64,000 bases of DNA from Bolinopsis microptera (Eukaryota; Ctenophora; Tentaculata; Lobata; Bolinopsidae). The stretch lies in assembly GCF_026151205.1 (NCBI RefSeq), contig NC_087077.1, forward strand, positions 3,720,001 through 3,784,000, written 5' to 3'. Positions 2,862-22,900 of the stretch are shown piece after piece. The notes beneath the pieces were generated by a model. It saw nothing but the letters and a program-made list of their open reading frames with translations. It searched no databases and had not been told where the DNA came from. The position numbers and the translations under genes were made by a program. Position 1 is the first letter of the stretch; each line of letters opens with the position of its first letter.

Positions 2862-3120
2862 CGGGTGGTGTAACTGAGTGGTAACACGATCGCCTCCCAA
2901 GCAGAAGGCCCGGGTTCAATTCCGGTCGGATGCAAGTCGGCCAGTTATCAAGCTGTGATTTGCTGGTGATACACACTCTCTGACTCGTATGTCGTAGGAC
3001 TAACCCCCTACAGCTAGTATCTGTATAGTGCCTGGGCACAGAGTGGCTTAGGGTTATTGAAAAGGAGATAAGCACCTCATGCCATCCCAACTTGCGTAAG
3101 AGACCTGCCCTTGTATCTTG
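2862..3120 (+). repeat. tRNA-derived SINE
   Basis: The head resembles a tRNA: GCCGGGTGGTGTAACTG with the box A-like GAGTGGTAACACG, and a box B GGTTCAATTCC about 35 bp further on. About 150 bp of unrelated body follows, with no clean cloverleaf for the whole tRNA part. That fits a SINE better than a working tRNA gene. The 3' end is placed roughly, just before the mobile element at 3139. Confidence 0.65.
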
Positions 3121-3138
3121 TATTGTATTTGAACGTCA

Positions 3139-3897
3139 TATATATACATATCACCGGAGACTCGCGGGCGGAACAAAATATTGCACGCGCACGCGCGTGC
3201 AATATTTCATATGTCCCCGAGGGCGCTAGCCCGAGGAGGACATATTTTCGTATAGCACGGAGGGCCCATCGGGCCCGAGTGCTATACGATTTTTCCGCCC
3301 GCGGGTCGAGGTGATGTGGATTATATCCACCAGCGGGCGTATTACAGTTAATATATAATTTTATAAATAAACAATGGAGCTTGTATAAAAGTCAACTCTA
3401 GAAAAGGTCGCCACTAATTGTTGTAACCATGGTAACACGTCACGTGTTCAATGTAAGCCAATCATAAAGGGCTGTGTCGTATATAGGGGCTGGAGATGCA
3501 CTGCATTCCTGGGCCGTGGGAATAATGAATGTAATGTCAGTGACGATGAATATCAATAATATAGGGGGATTATAGTGCTGATGTGTATTATGTAGTGTGT
3601 TATAATAACTTTGATATAAATCAAAGTATCATGTCATCTGCTCACGAGCTGCATGAGCAGCCCTACCGGACACAAAAATAAAATGTATATAATATAGTCA
3701 GTGTAATAAGGAATTTCACATGGAGACGATACAGAAACTGAAAATATTTTAGAGAACTCCGGGCTATATTGCTACTGGTCAAATTAAATGTCACTTGTTA
3801 GCGGGCTATATCATGAGCGGGCTGTAGAGATATCGGGCCCTTTGACAGCGGGCTGGTAAGAGCCCGCGATGCAAAAAAGCGCACGCTGGTGGATATA
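3139..3897 (-). mobile_element. Non-autonomous element, subfamily A, copy 1
   Basis: Read on the minus strand, this 759-bp element has the left end TATATCCACCAGCG at 3897, several AGCCCGC motifs, a central part with CACGTGACGTG and a CCAAT-like ATGATTGGCT, and a cloverleaf right end that finishes in ACCGGTGATA-like sequence at 3139. It is the mirror of 5431..6189: positions in the two copies sum to 9328, with no difference noticed. It contains no gene. It is homologous along its length to the 1.3-kb element at 6186, which ties it to the tyrosine-recombinase family. Confidence 0.85.
3150..3315 (+). other. Cloverleaf end structure, copy 1 (subfamily A)
   Basis: The outer stem pairs ATCACC...CGCGGGCGG with CCGCCCGCG...GGTGAT. 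It encloses three hairpins: 3177-3206 (AATATTGCACGCG stem, 4-nt loop), 3209-3245 (ATATGTCC/GGACATAT plus GGGC/GCCC), and 3249-3288 (CGTATAGCAC/GTGCTATACG plus GGGCCC/GGGCCC). Confidence 0.85.
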
Positions 3898-5316
3898 CAG
3901 GGGATATCTAGCTCTCATGAAATTCCACACATCATACAGGTTACCTGGGGATTGGGGAGTCTGGACATCTCAGACTAATACACTTACACTATAAGTAAGG
4001 TGATACCCTGCTCTTCAGCCTGCTGCTGGACTGTACTGGTATAACGTAGCGGTGGACATATTTTGCTGTACATTTGCGTGCTACCTCTCCAATTACGTTT
4101 CGGTATTGTTTATATATCATTTTTCAACAATTGGTATACCTAATTAGTAATTGAGGTTATTTTGAATACTTTTGTGGTGAGAATAATAGTAAAAACTATA
4201 CTATATATATACTAGTCACTACAATAAAAATATATTAAATTAAACTTAAGGAAAAATCATTGTACGTGACGAAAAATTCAAGGTTTTATATTACTTTTTA
4301 AATATTTGATACAAGAGAAACGCCATTTTCGGACGTGAAGAGAGTTAGGACTCCTCCTAATTACATTAAATTAACACCTTCTGTAACGTCCTGAATAAAT
4401 ACAGTTACGAAACAAAATTTACTAAACATTTTAAAACATTACTGAACATATTTGATGTTTTTTTCTTACCGCACTCCATTTTATGTCTACCTTTCAAGGA
4501 TCTGTTTCTGAGTTTCTCTTTTTGGTTGATTATGTCACTGTACTAACCTTTATTTATATACCTACATGTATTGTATGGTTTCTGTTCTTTTTAGTGTGGT
4601 TTACTAGAAAAGTTGTTTTAATTTTGTCTTTTATTGAGTTATACTCTTGTTCATTTTAACACTGCATTTGCTCACTTCACTCACAGTCAGCCGCTCTGAC
4701 ATGGTTGACCACCTTCTTTGTGTTGTTGGCTAATCATATACATCATTTCATTTCATATCATATATTTATTTATTTAATTTCAAATTTCAAATTGTTTGTT
4801 TACAATTTAATCGAGTTATGACCCTTTTAAGATCTTGCAGATACGTGATCCAGTTAATCAGTGATATCTTCACTCAATCAATGCCCTGATTGGTTGGAGA
4901 CTGCTTATAGGACAGTAACCGAAGCGCTATAACGCGAATTTCTTTGGTTTTAAGGAACGTCATTACGTCACTATCAGTATTCACTCAGTGATCAGATCTT
5001 AATCCACCAACATGCTCGTTACCGCCTATAAATGAGTCTCATCGTTGCTCGCTAGCGAATATAGTTCCCGATGAGATTACTGATTGGGTGACGAAATCAC
5101 TGATCTGCAATATTTTAAAAGGGTCATAACTTGGTTAAATTGAGATTTAGTTATTTAGTTATAGTTTCAACTCATGGTACATTAACATACAGTTAGCATA
5201 TTTAGTGTTTTGAGTGTGTTAATAAACACAAAATTTCTAATTTTTTAATGACAAAATGCTTATTTGTGTTTCTCGAGGGTACATTCATGTAAACGTTTGA
5301 TCGCAGAAAATATACA
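3898..5316. other. Spacer between inverted elements; SLC23 upstream region
   Basis: This is AT-rich single-copy-looking sequence with no open frame of note. Because the first SLC23 coding exon follows at 5317, it should hold the promoter and 5' leader, but I see no clear core promoter. A small inverted-repeat element lies at 4803-5142. Confidence 0.5.
4803..5142. mobile_element. Small MITE with imperfect terminal inverted repeats
   Basis: The ends match as inverted repeats: CAATTTAATCGAGTTATGAC at the left and, in reverse complement, TCAATTTAACCAAGTTATGAC at the right. Both run on through CCCTTTTAA and TTGCAGAT. Total length is about 340 bp and it is non-coding. No target duplication is clear, so the superfamily is not assigned. 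Confidence 0.6.
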
Positions 5317-8300
5317 ATGCCACCCGAAGATACTAACGACGGACAAGAACTTGTTCAACAAGTGAGTACCTTTCAGAATTCAGACAGAGTTATCCTAAAA
5401 TTAATATCTGAAGTTATGTGGTGATACCTTTATATCCACCAGCGTGCGCTTTTTTGCATCGCGGGCTCTTACCAGCCCGCTGTCAAAGGGCCCGATATCT
5501 CTACAGCCCGCTCATGATATAGCCCGCTAACAAGTGACATTTAATTTGACCAGTAGCAATATAGCCCGGAGTTCTCTAAAATATTTTCAGTTTCTGTATC
5601 GTCTCCATGTGAAATTCCTTATTACACTGACTATATTATATACATTTTATTTTTGTGTCCGGTAGGGCTGCTCATGCAGCTCGTGAGCAGATGACATGAT
5701 ACTTTGATTTATATCAAAGTTATTATAACACACTACATAATACACATCAGCACTATAATCCCCCTATATTATTGATATTCATCGTCACTGACATTACATT
5801 CATTATTCCCACGGCCCAGGAATGCAGTGCATCTCCAGCCCCTATATACGACACAGCCCTTTATGATTGGCTTACATTGAACACGTGACGTGTTACCATG
5901 GTTACAACAATTAGTGGCGACCTTTTCTAGAGTTGACTTTTATACAAGCTCCATTGTTTATTTATAAAATTATATATTAACTGTAATACGCCCGCTGGTG
6001 GATATAATCCACATCACCTCGACCCGCGGGCGGAAAAATCGTATAGCACTCGGGCCCGATGGGCCCTCCGTGCTATACGAAAATATGTCCTCCTCGGGCT
6101 AGCGCCCTCGGGGACATATGAAATATTGCACGCGCGTGCGCGTGCAATATTTTGTTCCGCCCGCGAGTCTCCGGTGATATGTATATATATCCACCAGCGG
6201 GCTATATTTTGTCTTCTGACCTCTCGCAGCCCGATGTAACAAGACACAGTGCGCGTCCAGCCCGCTTAAAATACAGCACGCGAGCAGACGACACTTAACG
6301 TGACAAGTAACAATACAGCCCGGAGCACTTTCACTTTCAAACAAATTTTTGGGGCCTAAACTATTAAACTTTAACTATTACAAGACACGTACACCATATT
6401 TATGTCACTGACACTACATATATCTTAATGTTTCCCACGGCTCAAGGAATGCACTAGTATATCACTTATCGGCCTCAGTCCCTATACCACGCAGTGCAAT
6501 ATGATTGGCTGACATTTAACACGTGACGTGTTACCATGGTTGCAACAATTAGTGGCGACTTTAAGTCTAGAGTTGATGTTTATACAGTATACACCATACA
6601 CGCTCCATTGTTTATTTCGACTGATTTCCATTTCCATAATTGCTCAAGCTATTTCGAGTAATAATTCTTGAAATTTTAGGCCGGAATTTTACGTGTAATT
6701 CTATTGTGTTCCCGAAAGAAATTTTGCCCTGTTTTTTGTTTTGAAACTATACCGTCTACCACTAATATTGATGTTATGAATTTGATCTTTTACTCAACGT
6801 AAAATATATATATATATTATATATTCAATGTCCCTTCGTGCTTCGTTATCTTGAGCTCTCTTTGTAACTGCAGATGGCATTCAGTTTATAGTTACACAGT
6901 TGTTAAAGTTATGGCGAGCACTCTTTTTGATAGTTTAAGCTGAATTTATTGTTTGACCGGCCCTACACACTGTGTACTGATTAACTCTCATTGTACATCT
7001 GACGTGTTGTCATGGTAACAGGAATTCTGTGTTACTCGTAGTATGGATTGACGGAGATACACAATTTTTAATCTATGTTAATGATTAACATCCCGTTGAC
7101 TGTTCATCAATATGGTTGGTGTGTAATACCATTATAGTACGTGGGATTTCAATTCTTCTATTGTGTTATATAATCAGTAATGCGCATGTTGCCCTGTTCT
7201 GCATCTTAAACCAAAGGCTAAAGCATGATTTTCTATTAAATTTGCAGCTTAATTAGTTCGAAATCTTTTACTTCTATTTGCTATGATTGTTGAAAACTGT
7301 AAAGCGCCCGCTCATGGATATACACGATATCATTCCTCGCCATGAGGGCGGAACTATCGTATAGCACTCGGGCCTGTTGGGCCCTCCGTGCTATACGAAA
7401 ATATCTCCGCCTCGGGCTGGAGCCCTCGTGGAGATATAAAATATTGCACGCGCACGCGCGTGCAATATTTAGTACCGCCCTCAAAGCTGCGGTGATATTT
7501 ATATATATTGGCCAATAATCTTATTTTGAGCGGAGGAAATTGTGTTCTGCCCAATTGCTGAGCTAAATCTAAACGACGTTGATGCATCACTTACTGAGTA
7601 CTGAGTACAGCTGAGGTACATGTCTGTCGCAATATGACTAATAATCGTCTGAGCCCTGGATAAGATTACAGTGTGTAGAATACAGCTGGAATTCTGGAAA
7701 TTCTGTAATGCTCTGTCTGGTATGGCAGGCAGTGGCGTAACGAAAGGCCCTGCTGACCCCGCTGTGCAGGGGGGCGCCGTCTTAGGGGGGCGCCAAATCG
7801 TCGTTTGAATGTGGGACAATTTCAAAAACTTAACTAAAGTACTAGCAAAACTGCGCGTTTTCTCTAGATACACACTTTTTAGAGATTTTACCGGCGTATT
7901 CTTTAAAATCACCTAATTTGTTTAATTTTAGGGAGGGGCACCAAAAGGGGAGGGGCGCCAACAGGGGGGCGCTTTTTTCGGCAGGGGGGCGCCAACAGGC
8001 AACGTTACGCCACTGATGGCAGGTATGCGCAAATAAAGTACGAAGTATTTGCAACATGATGAGTAGAGAAAGAGTAGAGAAAGAGTAGAGAAAGAGTAGA
8101 GAAAGAGTAGAGAAAGAGTAGAGAAAGAGCAGAGAAAGAGCAGAGAAAGAGTAGAGAAAGAGTAGAGAAAGAGTAGAGAAAGAGTAGAGAAAGAGTAGAG
8201 AAAGAGTAGAGAAAGAGTAGAGAAAGAGTAGAGAAAGAGTAGAGAAAGAGTAGAGAAAGAGTAGAGAAAGAGTAGAGAAAGAGTAGAGAAAGAGTAGAGA

Positions 8301-11300
8301 AAGAGTAGAGAAAGAGTAGAGAAAGAGTAGAGAAAGAGTAGAGAAAGAGTAGAGAAAGAGTAGAGAAAGAGTAGAGAAAGAGTAGAGAAAGAGTAGAGAA
8401 AGAGTAGAGAACAAGTATAGAAAGAGTAGAGAAAGAGTAGAGAAAGAGTAGAGAAAGAGTAGAGAAAGAGTGGAGAAAGAGTGGAGTAAGAGTGGAGAAA
8501 AAGTGGAGAAAGAGTGGAGAAAGAGTGGAGAAAGAGTGGAGAAAGAGTGGAGAAAGAGTGGAGAAAGAGTGGAGAAAGAGTGGAGAAAGAGTGGAGAAAT
8601 AGTGGAGAAAGAGTACAGAAAGAGTACAGAAAGAGTACAGAAAGAGTACAGAAAGAGTACAGAAAGAGTACAGAAAGAGTACAGAAAGAGTACAGAAAGA
8701 GTACAGAAAGAGTACAGAAAGAGTACAGAAAGAGTACAGAAAGAGTACAGAAAGAGTACAGAAAGAGTACAGAAAGAGTACAGAAAGAGTACAGAAAGAG
8801 TACAGAAAGAGTACAGAAAGAGTACAGAAAGAGTACAGAAAGAGTCTGAGCAGGGAAAGAAACTCTGTATATAATTTCATTTTCGCACAGGAACCCAAAC
8901 CAACACAAAGGCTTATAAAATTTCAATAAACCCTCGTTTGGCTTTATAATTAGAGTACTGATCCTGCTATTATTGAATTAATAGGGATTAATGATGAATG
9001 AATTGTGATGAAATCACTAGAGCATCGCAATTCTTTGTCTAAAATTAATTTATCAAAAGAAATGGTACACGTTCTCAATATTTCCATTAAATATCGAGTA
9101 AAGATAGTCTAAACAAGTGATTAAAGTTATTTTAGGGGGAAATCGTGCGATATTTCCGCTAATAACTGAGCCAATTACGTGAGTTTGCTTAAATCGAGGC
9201 TTTCACATTCAGGGATTACAAATCCGACCTATAATTGCGAATCAACCGAAACGAGAAAAAATTGATGAATGAATTCATAGTAATGATATTAGATAAAATT
9301 TGTGGACATTGATTGTCCGCCTTTTTGTCAATAATCTGGACGTATATCTTATATGATATTTATAATTTTGACTGTTCTGTTTCAGTACTTTCAGAGTTTG
9401 CCACACTTTTTGCCACTTCGTATCATGCAATTTGGTACCTTAGCAGGTGTACAGTTCACTAGATATTAAGGAAAAGTTGTTATTGGGAGAAGTGTAATGT
9501 AGTTAGGCGTGTAGAATGTTCTTACCTGGGGACCCCAGGCTATAATGTTCATAATATGAAGAATGAAGTATCACTATTTTTAGGATTACAAGCTTATCAA
9601 GGACAGCAGTCCAATGAAGATTGATATCAAAAACGATGATCAAGATGAGTCAGAAAATGATCTTGAAGTTATCAGAAAACAGGTAAAATAAAATTTAGTA
9701 GAACCTCAATCTACTGTGTGATCTAACGGGTAGAATATGGAACTTTGCTATACCCGGAGTTCGTTACGCCACTAAATTAAGTTCATTTACAAATTGTATG
9801 ATATTTTCGGTGTTTTAAATTAAATCCTGATTAACAGTGAAGCAGGTTTAATTTTCCCAAGACTCTCTTGAAAACAGAGTATCGCTGTAAGACCAATGAA
9901 TTCGGCTAATGGTCCATTTCTTCTCACCAATTCAAGACACATCTTACGATCGTAATCGAGGCAAGTCCTTCTAATTGTCCAATTTCAGCTGAATTACCCT
10001 CTTGGTAAGGACCCTAACTGGTTTCTGTCCGTTCTGCTAGGATTTCAACAATACCTCATCTTGTTTGGTTCTACTTTTGCTATCGCTGTTATTCTCGCCC
10101 CCAGTTTATGTGTTGAAAGTGAGTTTTGACAACCATGCTTTTATACATTTGTACCAGTATAGCAGTATGATCACATTTCAACAAATAATGAAAATATAAA
10201 ATTTAATATTTGCTCACATTTCTTTTCTCCGTTACAGATTTGTTGGTTCCCCGTCAGATTTCTAAAATATTCAATAACTTTGTAGGTAACGTGGTCGTTA
10301 AAGGTATTCTGTTAAACACGATGTTTGTTATGTGTGGCTTAGCTACTATGGTTCAGGTAGAATTAAATTAGTTTTTAACTAACTAATGAGTTATTGAATT
10401 ACGTTAGGTAGAATTCAATTCGACTTTACTTGCAATATTTGATAAGATATGTTGCAGCTTGTTTTCGTAAAAAAACATAAATTAAGCCACGTTATTTTGA
10501 TATTTACAAAAGTAAAGGTGAATAATTATGATGCTAATTTCAGATATTCTTTGGAACCCGACTTCCTATCGTTCAAAGTGGGTCTTTTGTCTATTTTGCC
10601 GTAGCAAAAGGAATTTTGTCTAAAGAGCCCTGCAAGGATGTGTACTACGTTATTGATGAGGATGGCAGTAAGTCAGATCTTTTAAATTATATTACATTTT
10701 ATGAAATGATTATGTAAATCGGTGCAATATAATATGTATATCCATCGTCATCGTCAATTTAACTCAACATTAACTCAGTTACGTAAAAACATGTGTTTTT
10801 AATGTGTTTTTTTAAAGGCATACGTGTCAACGTATATGTGGTACATGTTGAATGAACATTGATCATAGATGTAATTCTTGTTCAGATAACGGGACTCAAA
10901 CCTGGGATCCAAACTGGAAGCTGCGGATGACGGAGCTCCAGGGTAACCTCATGCTGGCTAGTTTGTTCCAGGTATGTAAATTAATTGAGGTATTTAAATT
11001 GTAAACAACTTTATTGTTAGCTCAATTTTTGCGCATTTTAAAAGTGGTGACTAAGAAAACAAATCGTAATTACTGAATTTTATTTTAATTTGAGAAAATG
11101 TATGTTTGGCAATTGGCACTGCTCTAACTAATTATTGTGTACATAGTACGATCAGTAAATGAGACTTTCTTTAGATCCTCGGTTATTCTGCCTTTAATAT
11201 CTTAAGGTTAGGTTTTTAGGCATGACTTAGCGAGAGTAAAATGGTACATAATGCAAATGAATTGATAAATAAAACTAGTATGTGGTAATGCATAAATCTA

Positions 11301-14300
11301 ATTACTTAATTCCCGAAAACACTATGAAGATATTTTAATAAAGAAAACACAAACAGTAAACACGTGAAATAGCTTGTCCGTTTATAAATGTTTAATGATC
11401 TCTTTGACACTGTAACACCAACTCCTTCTATTTTTACCTGAAATAATTCATTCTGACCACTAAATTGGTATTTAGTGAATTTGTTTGATCCTTCGTACCT
11501 TCAATTCAAATTAGCGTTATAAAAATTAGAAGCCACCCTTACCCTTTCATTTTCTTGAGCGACTTTAGACGCCAAAACGAAACCTCGGGCGCTCTCGTTT
11601 TACAATTTCCATCTTCGCCATTTCTTTCTCCGATCAGAATTTGGTGCAACTCTTTTTGGCCTTGGGGCTCTTCTTGAATCTTGATTAGATATTTCATCAT
11701 TAAGTTCGGCAGAGATGGATGGCAGGTATTGAACTGCTACTATGATGAGGCAGACCAGTATAACTGTGGTTAAAAACTTCATATCCTTCTTTTGACGGCC
11801 CCAACGTTAATGTGGCTTTTGCTATGTGTTGGTTCAGCCGAATTAATTATTATATAATCAAGTTTATTTTTCTCGTTAGTTGTCATCCGGCCAAACATTA
11901 AGCAACTTATATTGCAGTACCATTTATCATTTAGTAATCAAAATATGTCATTGTAATTTTGCATGGCTGAAATGTAACGCTTGATTTATATATATAATGA
12001 TTAATTGAATTTTCAAATAAAAAATAACTAGTTAGAACTATAAATAGCTGTGTAAAATAATTTGGTAAATGTAAGTTAAATAATATAAATTAGCTTTAAC
12101 ATTTATTTTGAGACACCCCATTTGATATTTAACGAAATTCTGTTAAATGCAATATCAGCTGCCAGGGAGTAGGGACTCCCATTACCCAGTATGAAAACTC
12201 CTAATGCACGTTTTAAATTCATATCGACTTCCGACTATAGGGCCTGTCATGATATCATGGATTGCTTAGGTTCCACCAGGATCTGGTAGTCCTCATAATT
12301 CTGCGGCCTCTATGTATCGTCATCTCGCACAACTCCGTATAAAGACCCTTGTGAGTTAGGCATGTTAAAATTTGCAGCTTTCCAGACATTGATTGGGTTG
12401 ACGAGGTGTCGTACGTCACCTCAAGATCGGGTGACAGGGGGCTGACCAGGCCAGAACCAAATTGATTGGGTCTGAGGTCACGTGATTATGAGCTTGAGGT
12501 CACGTGACTGTGACGTCACCAGAGCTTGTTCTCCGTTTCCCGCTCATTGGACCAAGTGAGCTTGCATGCTTGTGAATGTGGGTGTAAGTACAGCTGTACT
12601 GTAGTTTATATCTAATTACCCCATATTATAGAAACCGTAAATTTATTTTCTGACAGAAAGCTAGAAATTTACCAAAATATCGACATTGTTATAAACTTAT
12701 TTTGATGATCATTACTGACGTAAGATTGCACGAGAAATCGATTAAACTCGGTTTCAGAGCTCAACAATGCTTCCTTATGCCTTAAAATCCATGTTTTAAC
12801 GATAAAATCAACAGAGGTAATAAATACGCAGAAACAACGGATCGATTTTGAGTGACCAATAATTGTCGTGATGATACGCTCACAGGCTACCACGTCTCGT
12901 GTACCCTAGGATTTGGTTTGGATCGGACACTCAAAACAACGATAGAGGAGCGGTCTATACGCTCACAGGCGCCGGGACAAGTCAAACTAGGCAAAATCGC
13001 GGTGAATTTGCAGCGAAAGATAATATATCCACCAGCGGGCTATATTTTGTCTTCTGACCTCTCGCAGCCCGATGTAACAAGACACAGTGCGCGTCCAGCC
13101 CGCTTAAAATACAGCACGCGAGCAGACGACACTTAACGTGACAAGTAACAATACAGCCCGGAGCACTTTCACTTTCAAACAAATTTTTGGGGCCTAAGCT
13201 ATTAAACTTTAACTATTACAAGACACGTACACCATATTTATGTCACTGACACTACATCTTAATGGTTCCCACGGCTCAAGGAATGCACAATATCACTTAT
13301 CGTCCTCAGTCCCTATACCACGCAGTGCAATATGATTGGCTGACATTGAACACGTGACGTGTTACCGCATGGTTGCAACAATTAGTGGCGACTGTAAGTC
13401 TAGAGTTGATGTTTATACAGTATACACCATACACGCTCCATTGTTTATTTCAACTGATTTCCATTTCCATAATTGCTCAAGCTATTTCGAGTAATAATTC
13501 TTGAAATTTTAGGCCGGAATTTTACGTGTAATTCTATTGTGTTCCCGAAAGAAATTTTGCCCTGTTTTTTGTTTTGAAACTATACCGTCTACCACTAATA
13601 TAGATGTTATGAATTTGATATTTTACTCAACGTAATATATATATAGATATCACCGCAGCCTTGAGGGCGGTTCTAAATATTGCACGCGCGTGCGCGGGCA
13701 ATATTTTATATCTCCACGAGGGCGCCAGCCCGAGGAGGAGATATTTACGTATAGCACGGAGGGCCCAACGGGCCCGAGTGCTATACGATAGTTCCGCCCT
13801 CATGGCGAGGAATGATATCGTGTATATCCATGAGCGGGCGCTTCTCAAGTGTAGTTGTAATGCCACTAATTAGATGATCATTTACTAAGTTTTATAAACC
13901 ACAGGCGTAGTTTTATAGCCGTTGCCAGAGACAAATTTTACATTTTGCAGTCGAGTATTACATTTTTGAATTCCTGTCTCAGGAATAAGGAGAATAAATG
14001 AAACATTTTAATTTCACAAGGTTAAGCAATTCATATAAAAGTCAGGTGAAATCACAAAACAATTCTATTGAAGTATTGATCATGAACCTTTCAGCAGTTT
14101 AAAAACAATCATTTCTACCAGCTAGTATAACGGGGATCAAGTAAAACATTTTAAACAGTTCGGCAGTTCAGTTTAAAATACGGGTCAGTATAAAGGTAAC
14201 CAGAATAACGATTAAGATGAGGGCAATGGTTAACATTCTTTCTCGATAGTCTCTAGGGCTGTCCAAAGTGAGAATCTGCGACACTCTAGCCACATTTTTG

Positions 14301-16894
14301 GTGAGACCAGGTCGCTTGTACCTGTCGAGACCAGCCTGACTTTTGTGTCCAGTTCTAGCCATTATCACATTGTCGTCCACTCCCTGCTCGTTCAGCTGAG
14401 TGGTGACTGTAGCTCTCAACGATCTGAGGGAAAGCTTTTCTCCGTGTTTTCCTAGGCTTGCCTTCTCGTAGTACTTTTTGATAAGCAGGTTGAAGTAATT
14501 CCGTCCCAGAGCTCGTTTTTTTCCGTACCTGCAAGTATAAAAAGTAGATTGAAATCAGTAGTCAGGAAGGCTAACTATTTAAAATCGTTGCATGTATCCA
14601 ATATTTAGTTTTTGGTACTGAGTCAGAGTATAGAATACAAAGTAGTAAGAATGAAAAGGAAAGTGATTCGAAGATGAAATGAGTTGGTAATAAACTTACC
14701 AAATCGTGTGTCTCTCCGCGTCAGCAGCAGCTAACTTGAGAGGGTGCTGGAATAACTTGATTTGTGATCCTCTCATGCTTGGACAACAGCGATCCAGGTA
14801 TTATAGGTTGTAGTAGTGGTAGAAACTGGTTCTGTCAGAGAGTTTGGACACGTGAGATACTGTTCTTCTTTGATGGTTGATGTTCTTCATGCCTGGTTGT
14901 CTGTTTTTAGCAGCGTTTTCAATGTATGTGGTTTCCACCTCCTTATCTGTCAACTTGAAGGTGAAGTTCTCTGGAGTCATGTAACTCAACTCTGTACCTC
15001 CTCTGAAAGATGATCACATTCAGTAAGCGTAAGAATGACGTCATTGCAAGGCAATAATATCAGATAGGTCAGCAAAATTATCGTCAGATTTTTGGTAATA
15101 GGTTAGAAAAATCCTCAAATTTAACGACTGCTCCAACTGACCTGATAGCGAAGGTGTACGTGGTGAGAAAGATTAAAGTGGTGAGCAGCTGTTCGGGAGA
15201 AGAGGATCCAAGTACAGTCAGTAGCTGCGTCAGCTGTTCCGAAGTGAGGTGATCAGGTTGGTTGAGTGTAGCCGGCATTGAGTATTGTTTCTCTTTGACG
15301 TACCCGTCGTAAACTAGCTGAAACGGTCTAAAGCGTCTGTGTTTGAAGATGTTGTAGTCCTCTTTTGTTACACCTTGGTCATCACATCTCGCTCTTAGTA
15401 CTCGGTTCAGACCTGAAAATATGGAAAGATCTGAACATGTACTGCATTTAACATGTGTACGTGAAATGGATTAAAAAAACAGGAAAGAGAATCTGTTCTG
15501 CTAGACTGCATACTGGTATAATGATCCTACTCTTACTATTCAACAGAATGTTGTTCAAAAGTACGATGTCATCTTAATTACAAGCTATTGAAGAATCAAA
15601 TAAAAAATTAGCAAACCTCCAAGTAGACTGTGGAAAGTCCGCTGGTCATAGTTTTCTCCTCTGGCGGCGACGAACCTCACTAAAGCGTTAGGCATTCTTG
15701 AAAGAGGAAGCTCCTCCCACGGGGATTTAACTGTTTCGTCCGTCTTCGCAAAGTCTCTGAAAGCATTCAATGCAGTCACATTTTTCTTCAGGGTGTTTTC
15801 GGGAACGGTGTTGGTGAGAAACCGGGAAACAATCTTTTCCATTTCAAGCTCTCGATTTGCAGAGTGGGTCCGAGTTGAACTTGATGGGGTCTGATCAGAT
15901 GGGGGAGTTGACTTCTTTCCATACAGAATGTTTGAAATGGAGAACTGTCCAGTTGCACTATCTTCTGATAATTCTTCTCGAGGGAATAGTGAGTCATGGG
16001 AGGCATTCAACAGAGCCTGATTCATCAAGCTGACAGAACGGTCGTGTGCTGAGATCAAAGTGCTCGCCCTGGTTGACCTTGGAGTGCTCGCCCTGGTTGA
16101 CCTTGGAGTGCTCTGAGGAATCTGTGTGGAGGGGATCAAGTCGGATATTCCAACATCAAAGTTTCCGGGGCAGAAAGGACGACGGTCAGCTACACTACAC
16201 AAATTATCAATGTCCGGATCAAAATCGGAGTCTCCCTGGTCGGGAAGTTGAGAGGGGGTTGGAACATAATCAGGGTCACAATCAGACATCTCGTTATCGC
16301 TGAGCTCCGAACAATTATGTGGCTGGGCAGGAAGTGAGCGGAAATCCAGGCAGAGGGGCGGAAACGGAAACGTGAAAGTGAAAGCGATCCCTAATTAGAG
16401 TCGGCCCGGTATAGGCAACTGCCACCTAGTACACTGCTCAGTCACGTGACATCAAATTCGTCTAATAGCGCGTAGATGCGCTAGCACGAGTAGGTCACGT
16501 GACATACAAGAGCAGTCACGTGCGCGCGTAGCAGACATGTTCCCACGCGAACAGACATACTGAAACCTTTTTGAATAAAAAACCAAACTGTATTGAATTA
16601 GAAACCGAATCCAACTTTAACAAGGTAGGTAAATTAAAGTTACTAAGACAATGAACCAAGCGATTAGAATACCTCAACGATTATCATCGTATCGGGCAGT
16701 TATGAAAGTGAAAGTGCTCCGGGCTGTATTGTTACTTGTCACGTTATGTGTCGTCTGCTCGCGTGCTATATTTTAAGCGGGTTGGACGCGCACTGTGTCT
16801 TGTTACATCGGGCTGCGAGAGGTCAGAAGACAAAATATAGCCCGCTGGTGGATATATATATATTATATGTATATATATATATATATATTATATG

Positions 16895-16931
<37 letters not shown>

Positions 16932-19900
16932 ACCAGCGGGCTATATTTTGTCTTCTGACCTCTCGCAGCCCGATGTAACAAGACACAGTGCGCGTCCAGC
17001 CCGCTTAAAATATAGCACGCGAGCAGACGACACATAACGTGACAAGTAACAATACAGCCCGGAGCACTTTCACTTTCATAACTGCCCGATACGATGATAA
17101 TCGTTGAGGTATTCTAATCGCTTGGTTCATTGTCTTAGTAACTTTAATTTACCTACCTTGTTAAAGTTGGATTCGGTTTCTAATTCAATACAGTTTGGTT
17201 TTTTATTCAAAAAGGTTTCAGTATGTCTGTTCGCGTGGGAACATGTCTGCTACGCGCGCACGTGACTGCTCTTGTATGTCACGTGACCTACTCGTGCTAG
17301 CGCATCTACGCGCTATTAGACGAATTTGATGTCACGTGACTGAGCAGTGTACTAGGTGGCAGTTGCCTATACCGGGCCGACTCTAATTAGGGATCGCTTT
17401 CACTTTCACGTTTCCGTTTCCGCCCCTCTGCCTGGATTTCCGCTCACTTCCTGCCCAGCCACATAATTGTTCGGAGCTCAGCGATAACGAGATGTCTGAT
17501 TGTGACCCTGATTATGTTCCAACCCCCTCTCAACTTCCCGACCAGGGAGACTCCGATTTTGATCCGGACATTGATAATTTGTGTAGTGTAGCTGACCGTC
17601 GTCCTTTCTGCCCCGGAAACTTTGATGTTGGAATATCCGACTTGATCCCCTCCACACAGATTCCTCAGAGCACTCCAAGGTCAACCAGGGCGAGCACTCC
17701 AAGGTCAACCAGGGCGAGCACTTTGATCTCAGCACACGACCGTTCTGTCAGCTTGATGAATCAGGCTCTGTTGAATGCCTCCCATGACTCACTATTCCCT
17801 CGAGAAGAATTATCAGAAGATAGTGCAACTGGACAGTTCTCCATTTCAAACATTCTGTATGGAAAGAAGTCAACTCCCCCATCTGATCAGACCCCATCAA
17901 GTTCAACTCGGACCCACTCTGCAAATCGAGAGCTTGAAATGGAAAAGATTGTTTCCCGGTTTCTCACCAACACCGTTCCCGAAAACACCCTGAAGAAAAA
18001 TGTGACTGCATTGAATGCTTTCAGAGACTTTGCGAAGACGGACGAAACAGTTAAATCCCCGTGGGAGGAGCTTCCTCTTTCAAGAATGCCTAACGCTTTA
18101 GTGAGGTTCGTCGCCGCCAGAGGAGAAAACTATGACCAGCGGACTTTCCACAGTCTACTTGGAGGTTTGCTAATTTTTTATTTGATTCTTCAATAGCTTG
18201 TAATTAAGATGACATCGTACTTTTGAACAACATTCTGTTGAATAGTAAGAGTAGGATCATTATACCAGTATGCAGTCTAGCAGAACAGATTCTCTTTCCT
18301 GTTTTTTTAATCCATTTCACGTACACATGTTAAATGCAGTACATGTTCAGATCTTTCCATATTTTCAGGTCTGAACCGAGTACTAAGAGCGAGATGTGAT
18401 GACCAAGGTGTAACAAAAGAGGACTACAACATCTTCAAACACAGACGCTTTAGACCGTTTCAGCTAGTTTACGACGGGTACGTCAAAGAGAAACAATACT
18501 CAATGCCGGCTACACTCAACCAACCTGATCACCTCACTTCGGAACAGCTGACGCAGCTACTGACTGTACTTGGATCCTCTTCTCCCGAACAGCTGCTCAC
18601 CACTTTAATCTTTCTCACCACGTACACCTTCGCTATCAGGTCAGTTGGAGCAGTCGTTAAATTTGAGGATTTTTCTAACCTATTACCAAAAATCTGACGA
18701 TAATTTTGCTGACCTATCTGATATTATTGCCTTGCAATGACGTCATTCTTACGCTTACTGAATGTGATCATCTTTCAGAGGAGGTACAGAGTTGAGTTAC
18801 ATGACTCCAGAGAACTTCACCTTCAAGTTGACAGATAAGGAGGTGGAAACCACATACATTGAAAACGCTGCTAAAAACAGACAACCAGGCATGAAGAACA
18901 TCAACCATCAAAGAAGAACAGTATCTCACGTGTCCAAACTCTCTGACAGAACCAGTTTCTACCACTACTACAACCTATAATACCTGGATCGCTGTTGTCC
19001 AAGCATGAGAGGATCACAAATCAAGTTATTCCAGCACCCTCTCAAGTTAGCTGCTGCTGACGCGGAGAGACACACGATTTGGTAAGTTTATTACCAACTC
19101 ATTTCATCTTCGAATCACTTTCCTTTTCATTCTTACTACTTTGTATTCTATACTCTGACTCAGTACCAAAAACTAAATATTGGATACATGCAACGATTTT
19201 AAATAGTTAGCCTTCCTGACTACTGATTTCAATCTACTTTTTATACTTGCAGGTACGGAAAAAAACGAGCTCTGGGACGGAATTACTTCAACCTGCTTAT
19301 CAAAAAGTACTACGAGAAGGCAAGCCTAGGAAAACACGGAGAAAAGCTTTCCCTCAGATCGTTGAGAGCTACAGTCACCACTCAGCTGAACGAGCAGGGA
19401 GTGGACGACAATGTGATAATGGCTAGAACTGGACACAAAAGTCAGGCTGGTCTCGACAGGTACAAGCGACCTGGTCTCACCAAAAATGTGGCTAGAGTGT
19501 CGCAGATTCTCACTTTGGACAGCCCTAGAGACTATCGAGAAAGAATGTTAACCATTGCCCTCATCTTAATCGTTATTCTGGTTACCTTTATACTGACCCG
19601 TATTTTAAACTGAACTGCCGAACTGTTTAAAATGTTTTACTTGATCCCCGTTATACTAGCTGGTAGAAATGATTGTTTTTAAACTGCTGAAAGGTTCATG
19701 ATCAATACTTCAATAGAATTGTTTTGTGATTTCACCTGACTTTTATATGAATTGCTTAACCTTGTGAAATTAAAATGTTTCATTTATTCTCCTTATTCCT
19801 GAGACAGGAATTCAAAAATGTAATACTCGACTGCAAAATGTAAAATTTGTCTCTGGCAACGGCTATAAAACTACGCCTGTGCAGTGGTTTATAAAACTTA

Positions 19901-22900
19901 GTAAATGATCATCTAATTAGTGGCATTACAACTACACTTGAGAAGCGCCCGCTCATGGATATACACGATATCATTCCTCGCCATGAGGGCGGAACTATCG
20001 TATAGCACTCGGGCCCGTTGGGCCCTCCGTGCTATACGTAAATATCTCCTCCTCGGGCTGGCGCCCTCGTGGAGATATAAAATATTGCCCGCGCACGCGC
20101 GTGCAATATTTAGAACCGCCCTCAAGGCTGCGGTGATATCTATATATATTCAATGTCCCTTCGTGCTTCGTTATCTTGAGCTCTCTTGGTAACTGCAGAT
20201 GGCATTCAGTTTATAGCTACACAGTTGTTAAAGTTATGGCGAGCACTCTTTTTGATAGTTTAAGCTGAATTAATTGTTTGACCGGCCCTACACACTGTGT
20301 ACTGATTAACTCTCATTGTACATCTGACGTGTTGTCATGGTAACAGGAATTCTGTGTTACTCGTAGTATGGATTGACGGGGATACACAATTTTTAATCTA
20401 TATATGTTAATGATTAACATCCCGTTGACTGTTCATCAATATGGTTGGTGTGTAATACCATTATAGTACGTGGGATTTCAATTATTCTATTGTGTTATAT
20501 AATCAGTAATACTAATGTTGCCCTGTTCTGCATCTTACACCAAAGGCTAAAGCATGATTTTCTATTAAATTTGCAGCTTTATAGTTCGAAATCTTTTACT
20601 TCTATTTGCTATGATTGTTGAAAACTGTAAAGCGCCCGCTCATGGATATACACGATATCATTCCTCGCCATGAGGGCGGAACTATCGTATAGCACTCGGG
20701 CCTGTTGGGCCCTCCGTGCTATACGAAAATATCTCCGCCTCGGGCTGGAGCCCTCGTGGAGATATAAAATATTGCACGCGCACGCGCGTGCAATATTTAG
20801 TACCGCCCTCAAAGCTGCGGTGATATCTATATGTATTTGCATAGCTAAGTTAGATGTCATAAATTCGTTAACTAGTTTGTTAGCTTGCAAAATAGGGAGC
20901 GACAGGCTTGTCTGGCAAAACAATAGCATCTATATTAATAATCTTAAGTGTTAAGGTCTAAACAGACTCTTCTTCGTGATGTTGTTACACGAATAGGGTA
21001 ATGGAAATTATTAGTTGGTTTGTGTGTAGATAGTAGGTCTGTGCGGCTTCTAGTGATAATAGAAAATTATTATAATTATTACGGAAGAATTATAATAAAA
21101 GTTATGTTTATATGGGAACAAGGAGAGTAAGTTTACATCGAAAAAAAAAACACCATATTTTCGGACTACCAAAATTTAGGTCACCATCGGCATCATTGTT
21201 TTCCCCAAATTATTTTTCAAGTATTTTCCTTAATTATGACTTTATCGATCTACTATCAACTTATCAATATAGTAAGTTATAAATATGATTCATCAAATAA
21301 TTAATGAACACTAGTATTCGATCATGAATTGATTTAAAATGATTTTGGATACGTTCTATTAAAAATAAAGAAATAAGCAAGCTCTGTCAGTCACTAGACA
21401 CCCCAATCAATGTCTGGAAAACTGCAAACATTCAGAAGACGATACATAGAGGCCCTCTTATGAACAAAAGCAAAGATGAGGAAATAACATAGTCATAATA
21501 CGTATGTGATGTAAAATGTGTTAGGCATAAGGTTAGTTAGCAGTTAATCTGTTAAGTGAGATTTGGAACAATGAGAACATTGACTAATTGTTAACACGAT
21601 TAATCTATATTATAACTTTATAACATACCTTTGCGAACACAATATGGACAAAAAATCATGAGGGTGAACGAAATATTTCTACGAACATAGTGATAGTGTA
21701 AAACTTATACAAAGGATGCCGCAAATCACAATGCTGACATTTGACAACATACCGCCCGGCAAAAAGCCACTGAGCTGCAAAATTTTGCCACTATACTCGA
21801 TAGAATTAAAGATGTTAAGTGATTTAAACCTCATTCTGTTCGATAACCATAATAATAATATGCCATAGGACTACTTGTTCCAGAACCACGTGCCTAAGAA
21901 CAACTTGTTCACTTGAAGAACCGTGGACATTTCTGTGAATTCGCCGCGATTTTCAAAATTTTCGCCGCGATTTTGCCTAGTTTGGCTTGTCGTGGCGCCG
22001 CGATTTTTGGCCTAAATAATCGCGATTTTCTTTTGTCCTTGGTCATTCTCGATACGTACTCCTCAAGGCAAAGCTCGTTTTACGAATGGGAGCTGGGAGG
22101 CCTGCCTTCCGAGATCGCATTACAAAAGGGAACCCTCGAGTCCAAAATCGTATATCGAGGGGTAGGTGGTACTGGGTGGCGCTCAACCTGTCATTCGGCC
22201 AAATCTCTATTCATTATGAACATAAATATAATAGCCTCTGGTCCCCCAGGTATGGTAGGTTCGGACTTCGAAAAACCAAAAAAATACTTTTGGCTCATAA
22301 TGATCAGAGTAGCATGAAACATGAACAAAATTAGTTTCAGGAAAAACTTCCAAAATCGTATATCGAGAGGTAGGTACTACTAGTGTACTACTAGGTAAGG
22401 ACTTCAGAAAACCGAAAAAAATATTTTAGGCTCATAATGATCAGGGTAGCATGAACCGTGGAAAAATTGGTTTCCAGGAATCCACTTTCACAAGCATTTC
22501 TTAACCCACTCGTCTGCTGACGTAACAATAACATTGTTAACCAAAAACTTCTCAACTTCCCTAAAACTTAGACATAAAAACTTAACTTATACCAATAGAC
22601 ATAAGTTTACCACTAGACATAAAGTTAACCACTAGACACCCCAATCAATGCCTGGAAAACTGCAAACATTCAGAAAACGATATGAACAAAAGCAAAGATG
22701 AGGAAATAAAATAATACGTATGTGATGTAAAATGTGTTAGGCATAATATAATGTTAGTTAGCAGTTAATCTGTTAAGTGAGATTTGGAACAATGTGAACA
22801 TTGACCAATTGTTAACACGATTAATCTATATTGTAACTTTATAACATACTTTTGCGAACATAATATGGACAAAACTCATGAGGGTAAAGGAAATATTTCT

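Follow-up and report, generated by a model that had tools for sequence, protein, structure and literature searches.

What does a structure of three hairpins within an outer stem do at the end of an animal transposon? This question is raised by a 64,000-nt stretch of the genome of the ctenophore Bolinopsis microptera (NC_087077.1, positions 3,720,001 to 3,784,000; C6:3720001-3784000; hereafter, the window), in which an initial annotation had noted six copies of such a structure. We analyzed the window (38.7% GC) together with the genome to which it belongs (264.65 Mb, 232 contigs). We identify the structure as the right end of tyrosine-recombinase (YR) transposons of the Crypton type and of their short derivatives; its fold is well supported. 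By analogy to the attP(+) site of CTXphi and the attC sites of integrons, we propose, with a probability of roughly 0.55 for the explanation as a whole, that the folded right end is the substrate of the recombinase.

The repeats of the window comprise A elements of ~760 bp, B-type non-autonomous elements of ~1.3 kb and B autonomous elements of ~3.2 kb. Their six three-armed right ends, at 3138-3311 (−), 6017-6190 (+), 7302-7512 (+), 13633-13843 (−), 19943-20153 (+) and 20630-20840 (+), lay where they had been annotated. Using RNA parameters, each copy folded as had been described, with an outer stem containing GGGCGG/CCGCCC around three hairpins. In the A-type non-autonomous element at 5427-6190 (+), the cloverleaf occupies 6021-6169, with the outer stem at ~6021-6033 and ~6157-6169 and the hairpins at ~6039-6080, ~6083-6119 and ~6121-6153. 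The terminal right half-site, GGTGATATG, plus TATATATAT of the crossover region occupy 6173-6190 (+). On either strand, folding the A and B ends with DNA parameters gave values 7.5 to 11.4 standard deviations lower than the average for 200 dinucleotide shuffles. The six copies are nevertheless not six independent witnesses, since they fall into three pairs with 100%, 100% and 99% identity, respectively, and at least 40 A ends in the genome are 100% identical.

The structure spans ~205 bp rather than the annotated ~170 bp, as the outer stem continues on the inner side into an inverted copy of the junction between right and left ends. In the A element, this internal inverted core is CGCCCGCTGGTGGATATAATCCACATCACC (5989-6018, +), whose reverse complement aligns to the element junction. 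The complete A right end, comprising the terminal half-site, cloverleaf and internal core, is also present at 3138-3342 (−), and the corresponding B right ends are at 7303-7509 (+), 13637-13843 (−), 19944-20150 (+) and 20631-20837 (+). An internal inverted copy of the junction was found just inside the structure in six of six subfamilies, A, B, C, D, F and G. Its alignment to the junction scored 56, 48, 60, 56, 39 and 50, respectively, as compared to maxima of 32, 37, 33, 38, 32 and 26 in 2000 dinucleotide shuffles each. The spacer of the internal copy is 1-2 bases shorter than that of the junction in A, B, C, D and F, the shortening being limited to the spacer; in B, two extra bases in an arm offset the loss. 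For G, both sides of the spacer alignment contain gaps, so that it gives no verdict on spacer length.

When joined, the ends of all six subfamilies were predicted to fold as one stem with the arm or arms at its tip (the A sequence used in this folding carried one wrong base). In these predicted folds, two inverted core sites pair at the base of an armed hairpin, and extra bases of the junction strand remain unpaired. A natural head-to-tail junction between an A right end and a B left end occurs in the window (5984-6206, +). It folded as one stem with three arms, with a DNA minimum free energy of −84.5 and a z-score of −13.79, and none of 200 shuffles was as low.

The plan was found in six subfamilies, with three arms in A, B, C and D and one arm in F and G (C, C12:5804529; D, C1:13993151; F, C4:7001192; G, C1:14643233 and locus L095). 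According to BLAST of the six ends, A/B against C, D, F and G yielded nothing better than E 0.007, for a single 30-nt match between B and C, and by sequence the A/B ends stand apart from the C/D, F and G ends. The C and F ends share 24 nt at the internal core (E 5e-4), and the D and G ends share 28 nt at the CTCGTGC tip (E 2e-4). The recombinases of C and D are 30% and 32% identical to that of B, and between C and D the identity is 46% across the first long exon; identities across families were 27-32% (C and D to B; F and G to C). The folding z-scores of the top and bottom strands were −11.4 and −13.3 for C, and −8.9 and −9.7 for D. The retention of the plan with largely different sequence in C, D and G adds to the support for the fold beyond A and B, and this recurrence between families is a stronger argument than covariation.

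The tips of the arms also share a feature. The tip stem is flanked by 5′ CTC and 3′ TCG, TCC or GTC in 10 of the 10 H1, H2 and single arms, a pattern that was seen before the test was written and in families that are not all independent. The four H3 arms are plain hairpins without the pattern. In DNA, facing GA steps form stable sheared pairs. The CTC/TC tip corresponds to facing GA steps on the bottom strand, a hint that the working fold may be that of the bottom strand.

The paired changes quoted in the initial annotation for A and B were reproduced: one compensated pair distinguishes the middle hairpins (G-C to C-G) and two distinguish the outer stems (C-G to T-A and C-G to A-T). Among 49 distinct ends (15 A and 34 B), 26 of the 175 columns of the structure differ between A and B, 12 of them unpaired and 14 paired, two of the latter being gaps. 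Of the remaining 12 base differences at paired positions, ten make up five compensated pairs and two are uncompensated. This set leaves out matches shorter than ~150 nt, ends cut by a locus border, the duplicates E10 and E35, and the truncated L080. In B, pair 48-174 is G-C in 30 ends, G-T in two and A-T in two, and the mean minor-state frequency is 0.0145 at the 126 paired positions versus 0.0324 at the 49 unpaired ones. For F, 20 of the 53 matches listed were hand-picked to span identities. In this set, 89% of cells pair, a level reached by none of 1000 shuffles and compared with 33-49% in slid structures; the pair lists were derived from the folds of a single B end and a single F end and are biased towards them. 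Pair 34-110 is C-G in 13 of the 20 F ends and G-C in seven, with none half changed, amounting to about five changes on a rough tree with both sides changed in every end. Pair 38-106 is G-C in 13 ends, C-G in six and a gap in one, with about three changes on the rough tree, one of which is the gap. The annotation had staked its claim, that the fold is kept by paired change, on covariation beyond the A/B split. Such covariation is present, at pair 48-174 in B and in the F switches, which together with the five compensated A/B pairs support the claim. The paired change is real; it is modest within A/B and clearer in the two F pairs.

The assignment of a tyrosine recombinase to the element likewise held. 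The B autonomous element carries a four-exon gene, with splice sites placed by eye: in copy 2 (16924-20150, +), inferred exons 1 to 3 are at 17492-18164, 18369-18639 and 18779-19081, and exon 4 is at 19253-19613 (all +). Exon 4 encodes the catalytic R-H-Y residues and a hydrophobic C-terminal tail, and matched Phage_integrase above the cut-off (29.1 bits; cut-off, 27.1). The exon 2 fragment matched DUF3504 below the cut-off (E 0.0024; 18.4 bits), and the C protein scored 59.1 bits against this domain (cut-off, 29.7). Exon 3 contains one in-frame TAA, a stop shared by both B copies of the window. Among the stop-to-stop frames of at least 90 aa in the B element, there was no reverse transcriptase, RNase H or other transposase. 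A genome search with the last exon identified four close copies (99-100%), two of them in the window, as well as one 90% fragment, two matches at 62-63% and weaker relatives; the C, D, F and G recombinases were among these relatives or were found with the C protein.

In seven aligned proteins (B, C, D and P0001-P0004), R315, R454, H477 and Y486 are invariant. At the position of the box-II histidine, B, C, D, P0001 and P0002 have R or K, and P0003, P0004 and G have H. An AlphaFold2 model of the C protein (353 aa, without the last exon) had a mean predicted local distance difference test score of 77.8 and a predicted template modelling (TM) score of 0.61. In a Foldseek search with this model, Cre ranked first (E 1.5e-7; TM-score by query, 0.59), the integron integrase 2a3v appeared from rank 28 (E 7.6e-6), and the 50 matches listed were all YRs or QRICH1. 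According to the model, the element enzyme is a full YR. Among viral contigs, no relative of P0001 or P0009 was confirmed.

A hydrophobic C-terminal helix is present in the recombinases of B, L065, L066, C, D, P0001, P0002 and P0009, with a best 19-residue hydropathy of 2.1-3.5 at 0-11 residues from the end, and is absent from those of G, P0003, P0004 and P0010; P0005-P0008, which look incomplete or run into introns, were set aside. The tail is not needed for the end plan, since G has the plan and no tail. In the A-D type recombinases, including those at loci L065, L066, L068 and L072, the tail resembles a membrane tail anchor, which is unusual for a site-specific recombinase.

The right ends are abundant. 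As each genome search scored just 40 candidates, the copy numbers given here are minimum values. The A end had at least 40 full-length matches at 100%, including the two in the window, and one at 96% (225 candidates). There were at least 55 matches for B (230 candidates), 40 for D (183 candidates), 40 of 196 nt or more for C (235 candidates) and 53 for F, weak ones included (263 candidates). The many near-identical copies suggest recent movement. The copies are scattered across C1-C13, with some forming small tandems; an integron platform was not specifically searched for. Scanning 13 loci for the best-folding 200-nt stretch returned D-type ends in seven (L084, L087, L088, L090, L092, L093 and L094); in L089 it picked out the G arm, and in L069 the F end. 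In L066, L085, L095 and L096 it returned something else; L095 nonetheless contains a G arm and internal core, and L066 continues into LINE-like sequence.

One precise insertion was identified, in which a C copy is nested in an intron of a sibling. The empty site, GGGTTAATTATAATATTTTT, became ...TTAATTATAA-ACCCC... and ...GTGTGTTATAA-TATTTTT, with TTATAA (6 bp) at both ends of the insertion. The A/B copies whose flanks were read are often in TA runs, sometimes inside or beside other copies and in either orientation; as the sites are TA runs, terminal direct repeats are not resolvable for A/B. Five distinct head-to-tail junctions occurred in the sequences examined. Some B-type short elements share with the B autonomous element only ~1-161, at the left, and the last 207 bp (3026-3232), a block that starts at the internal core. 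Other short B-type elements share 2971-3232 with it, and L042-type elements share 567-764 of A. The extent of this homology indicates that the internal core moves together with the arms and the terminal half-site, as a single cis unit.

In the mechanism we propose, the right end consists of an inverted full copy of the junction, one or three arms within the outer stem, and the terminal half-site. When the ends are joined, in a circle or tandem, one strand would fold back such that the internal core pairs with the junction core. A single strand would then carry a restored double-stranded recombinase site, the arms lying at its tip. The recombinase would act on this folded form, either as a single strand or as a cruciform extruded from a supercoiled circle. 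It would exchange a single strand with a TA-rich target, in the manner of XerC on CTXphi attP(+) and of IntI on attC. Given the shorter internal spacer, some bases of the junction strand would stay unpaired, and these could determine which strand is cut. What the analysis shows is the anatomy, the conserved fold, its covariation and one precise insertion; we infer the circle, the folded substrate, the strand choice and the binding by the element's own recombinase. We regard as evenly balanced the broader proposal that these animal transposons use a folded single-strand or cruciform YR substrate with strand choice by a shorter-spacer inverted core, convergent on or homologous to CTXphi and attC, and, in the A-D types, membrane anchoring by the tail helix.

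The closest mechanistic parallel is the forked hairpin of CTXphi attP(+), followed by integron attC. In the account of CTXphi in PMC3089051, two inverted dif-like sites ~90 bp apart pair in a 150-bp forked hairpin, unmasking the attachment site; XerC exchanges one strand pair, and the junction is processed by replication or repair. The right ends resemble this arrangement, as described there, in the predicted pairing of their inverted cores in a forked hairpin and in their spacers of unequal length. Unlike CTXphi, which has a single-stranded genome and borrows the bacterial XerC/XerD, the animal element encodes its own YR. The attC site is described in PMC8946536 as a folded imperfect palindrome with an unpaired spacer, extrahelical bases, a variable tip and little sequence conservation, which can also extrude from supercoiled duplex. 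In their predicted folds, the elements' ends are similar: they would form imperfect palindromes with an unpaired spacer, extra unpaired bases on the junction strand and a variable tip, and their sequences are little conserved. However, the copies are dispersed rather than arranged as cassettes behind attI, two core copies flank the arms, and the model of the C enzyme matches Cre before IntI. The initial annotation had compared the fold to attC. The comparison is apt, the internal inverted core being the best reason for it; overall, the observation in the annotation was correct and understated, and its interpretation is partly supported. It had missed this core and the parallel to CTXphi attP(+).

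The elements resemble Cryptons (CryptonA) in that a YR with DUF3504 and Phage_integrase domains is the sole enzyme seen, many short derivatives occur beside few autonomous copies, and 6 bp of TTATAA flank the nested insertion. The survey of Kojima and Jurka (2011) reports animal Cryptons without terminal repeats and without a C-terminal domain, and its main text has no occurrence of 'hairpin' or 'palindrom' (PMC3212892). The elements differ from the animal Cryptons reported there in their structured right end and inverted internal core and, in the A-D types, in their hydrophobic C-terminal tail. QRICH1, ZMYM and KIAA1958, which are domesticated DUF3504 proteins, share domain homology with the element recombinases; these proteins are described in the survey as having no catalytic site (PMC3212892), whereas the catalytic residues are present in the element YRs. 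The elements differ from DIRS/Ngaro retrotransposons in that the B-element frames include neither reverse transcriptase nor RNase H.

Several points weigh against the folded end being the recombinase substrate. The tip pattern failed as a genome-wide marker, with 356 sites (188 + 168) versus 1029 (473 + 556) for the reversed control. The families are not fully independent, as an 82-nt stretch is common to the C and D ends at 71% identity (E 1e-5). In F, the count of compensated pairs (6) was not significant, as it was reached by 565 of 1000 shuffles and slid structures show 4-6, and pairs 42-102 and 43-101 are often broken. Head-to-tail junctions, while compatible with a circle, also arise by insertion beside an older copy. 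Template-switch correction yields double changes and can match inverted stems without selection for the fold. Finally, the cloverleaf could instead serve synapsis, replication or chromatin.

Of the other explanations considered, the most serious is that recombination occurs on duplex DNA, with the internal core as an extra binding site for synapsis or directionality and the hairpins extruding only to shape or regulate the complex. Both cores are present as duplex sequence too, and many YR systems have accessory sites. In addition, the gathered A/B ends all have the standard arm order, so the internal copy may bind without recombining, although the gathering, which required a match of at least 150 nt to a standard end, would miss ends in inverted order. 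Such a duplex site leaves unexplained the compensated change in the outer stem and in the arms beyond the cores, as well as the conserved tip loops, and we consider it possible but distinctly less probable than a folded substrate. It is improbable that the fold is a by-product of palindrome homogenization, in which template switching keeps the arms alike and the fold has no function. Beyond the double changes that template-switch correction yields, identical long inverted pairs exist in the genome; however, the non-paired CTC/TC loops and unequal spacers persist, families with recombinases of just 27-32% identity have the plan in common, and derivatives that lose the interior keep the end.

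We judge equally improbable a role for the end in replication, as a hairpin like those of parvoviruses from which extrachromosomal copying of the element would be primed or started. Its terminal position and branched, T-like shape would suit such a role, and long perfect element palindromes exist (2964 nt). Against this, the frames of at least 90 aa in 13900-19881 include no replication protein, all being YR exons or overlaps with the left end, and the palindromic pairs carry two complete, outward right ends rather than one shared hairpin. The location of the cloverleaf downstream of the YR gene raises the possibility that it acts in the transcript, for example as a terminator or a stabilizing 3′ structure. 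No Rfam family was matched at the gathering threshold in window positions 3000-21000, and the stem pairs across the junction with the element's other end. Further, G-U and A-C departures from the commonest pair were equal (12 and 13), which gives no indication of constraint at the RNA level, though neutral mutation gives the same. A role in RNA is the least probable of these explanations, and very unlikely.

The fold plan is known from bacterial integrons and phage; we did not find it reported for animals in the texts available to us. Similarly, we recognized no report of such foldable animal transposon ends in the literature searched, which lies outside most subscription journals, bioRxiv and Repbase. 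In that literature we found no account of how the ends of animal Cryptons are defined or how these elements move, the survey reporting no terminal repeats (PMC3212892). The ends, crossover region and conserved foldable end are described here in several lineages of one genome, which makes it testable whether an animal YR recombines a folded strand. If the folded end is indeed the substrate, folded-strand site-specific recombination would extend beyond bacteria and their phages, and these enzymes would be animal integrases that select one strand and work largely in one direction.

The first 160 nt of the left ends, counted at window 5431-5590 and 6191-6350 and at loci L072 and L068, contain 6 (A), 4 (B), 10 (C) and 8 (D) CCCG/CGGG words, the background in window positions 22000-64000 being a mean of 0.33 per 160 nt. 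Judging from sequence, these words are perhaps candidate accessory recombinase sites. Dozens of matches to the C recombinase cover its 5′ part only, from residue ~12 to residue ~39-111 of 353 (C13:412905, C5:22133074 and C12:10426016, for example), and some adjoin D right ends. These look like D derivatives cut at varying points.

Within the window, the A-type element at 3138-3901 (−), with its right end at 3138 and its left end near 3897, has an inverted partner at 5427-6190 that is 100% complementary. Such inverted A pairs, with left ends inward, also occur at C7:2988817-2991208 and C8:17630542-17632916; the arms are 99.4-100% identical to each other and surround unrelated DNA of ~0.8-1.5 kb. 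We considered a composite transposon and rejected it: the DNA between the arms at the three loci had no mutual BLAST match. Based on this lack of match, and on inner DNA that by eye is host-exon-like at one locus, we read the pairs as separate insertions or local duplicates and not as one element with long terminal inverted repeats. Local inverted duplication, gene conversion and paired insertion are all candidates for their origin.

A B-type non-autonomous element of ~1.3 kb lies at 6182-7509 (+). The left part of a second, at 13024-13643 (+), is split by the pair of B autonomous elements and resumes at 20143-20837 (+), with its own right end. The two autonomous elements, copy 1 at 13637-16857 (−) and copy 2, are head to head, forming a perfect palindrome with arms of 2964 nt (13900-16863 and 16918-19881; 100%). 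The palindrome sits in the TA run of a non-autonomous copy, and an assembly artefact is possible. Elsewhere in the window, a long tandem array with an 11-bp period spans ~8060-8850, with several sequence variants along it by eye, and exons at 64-991 resemble a gamma-glutamyl hydrolase gene, as judged from translated frames only.

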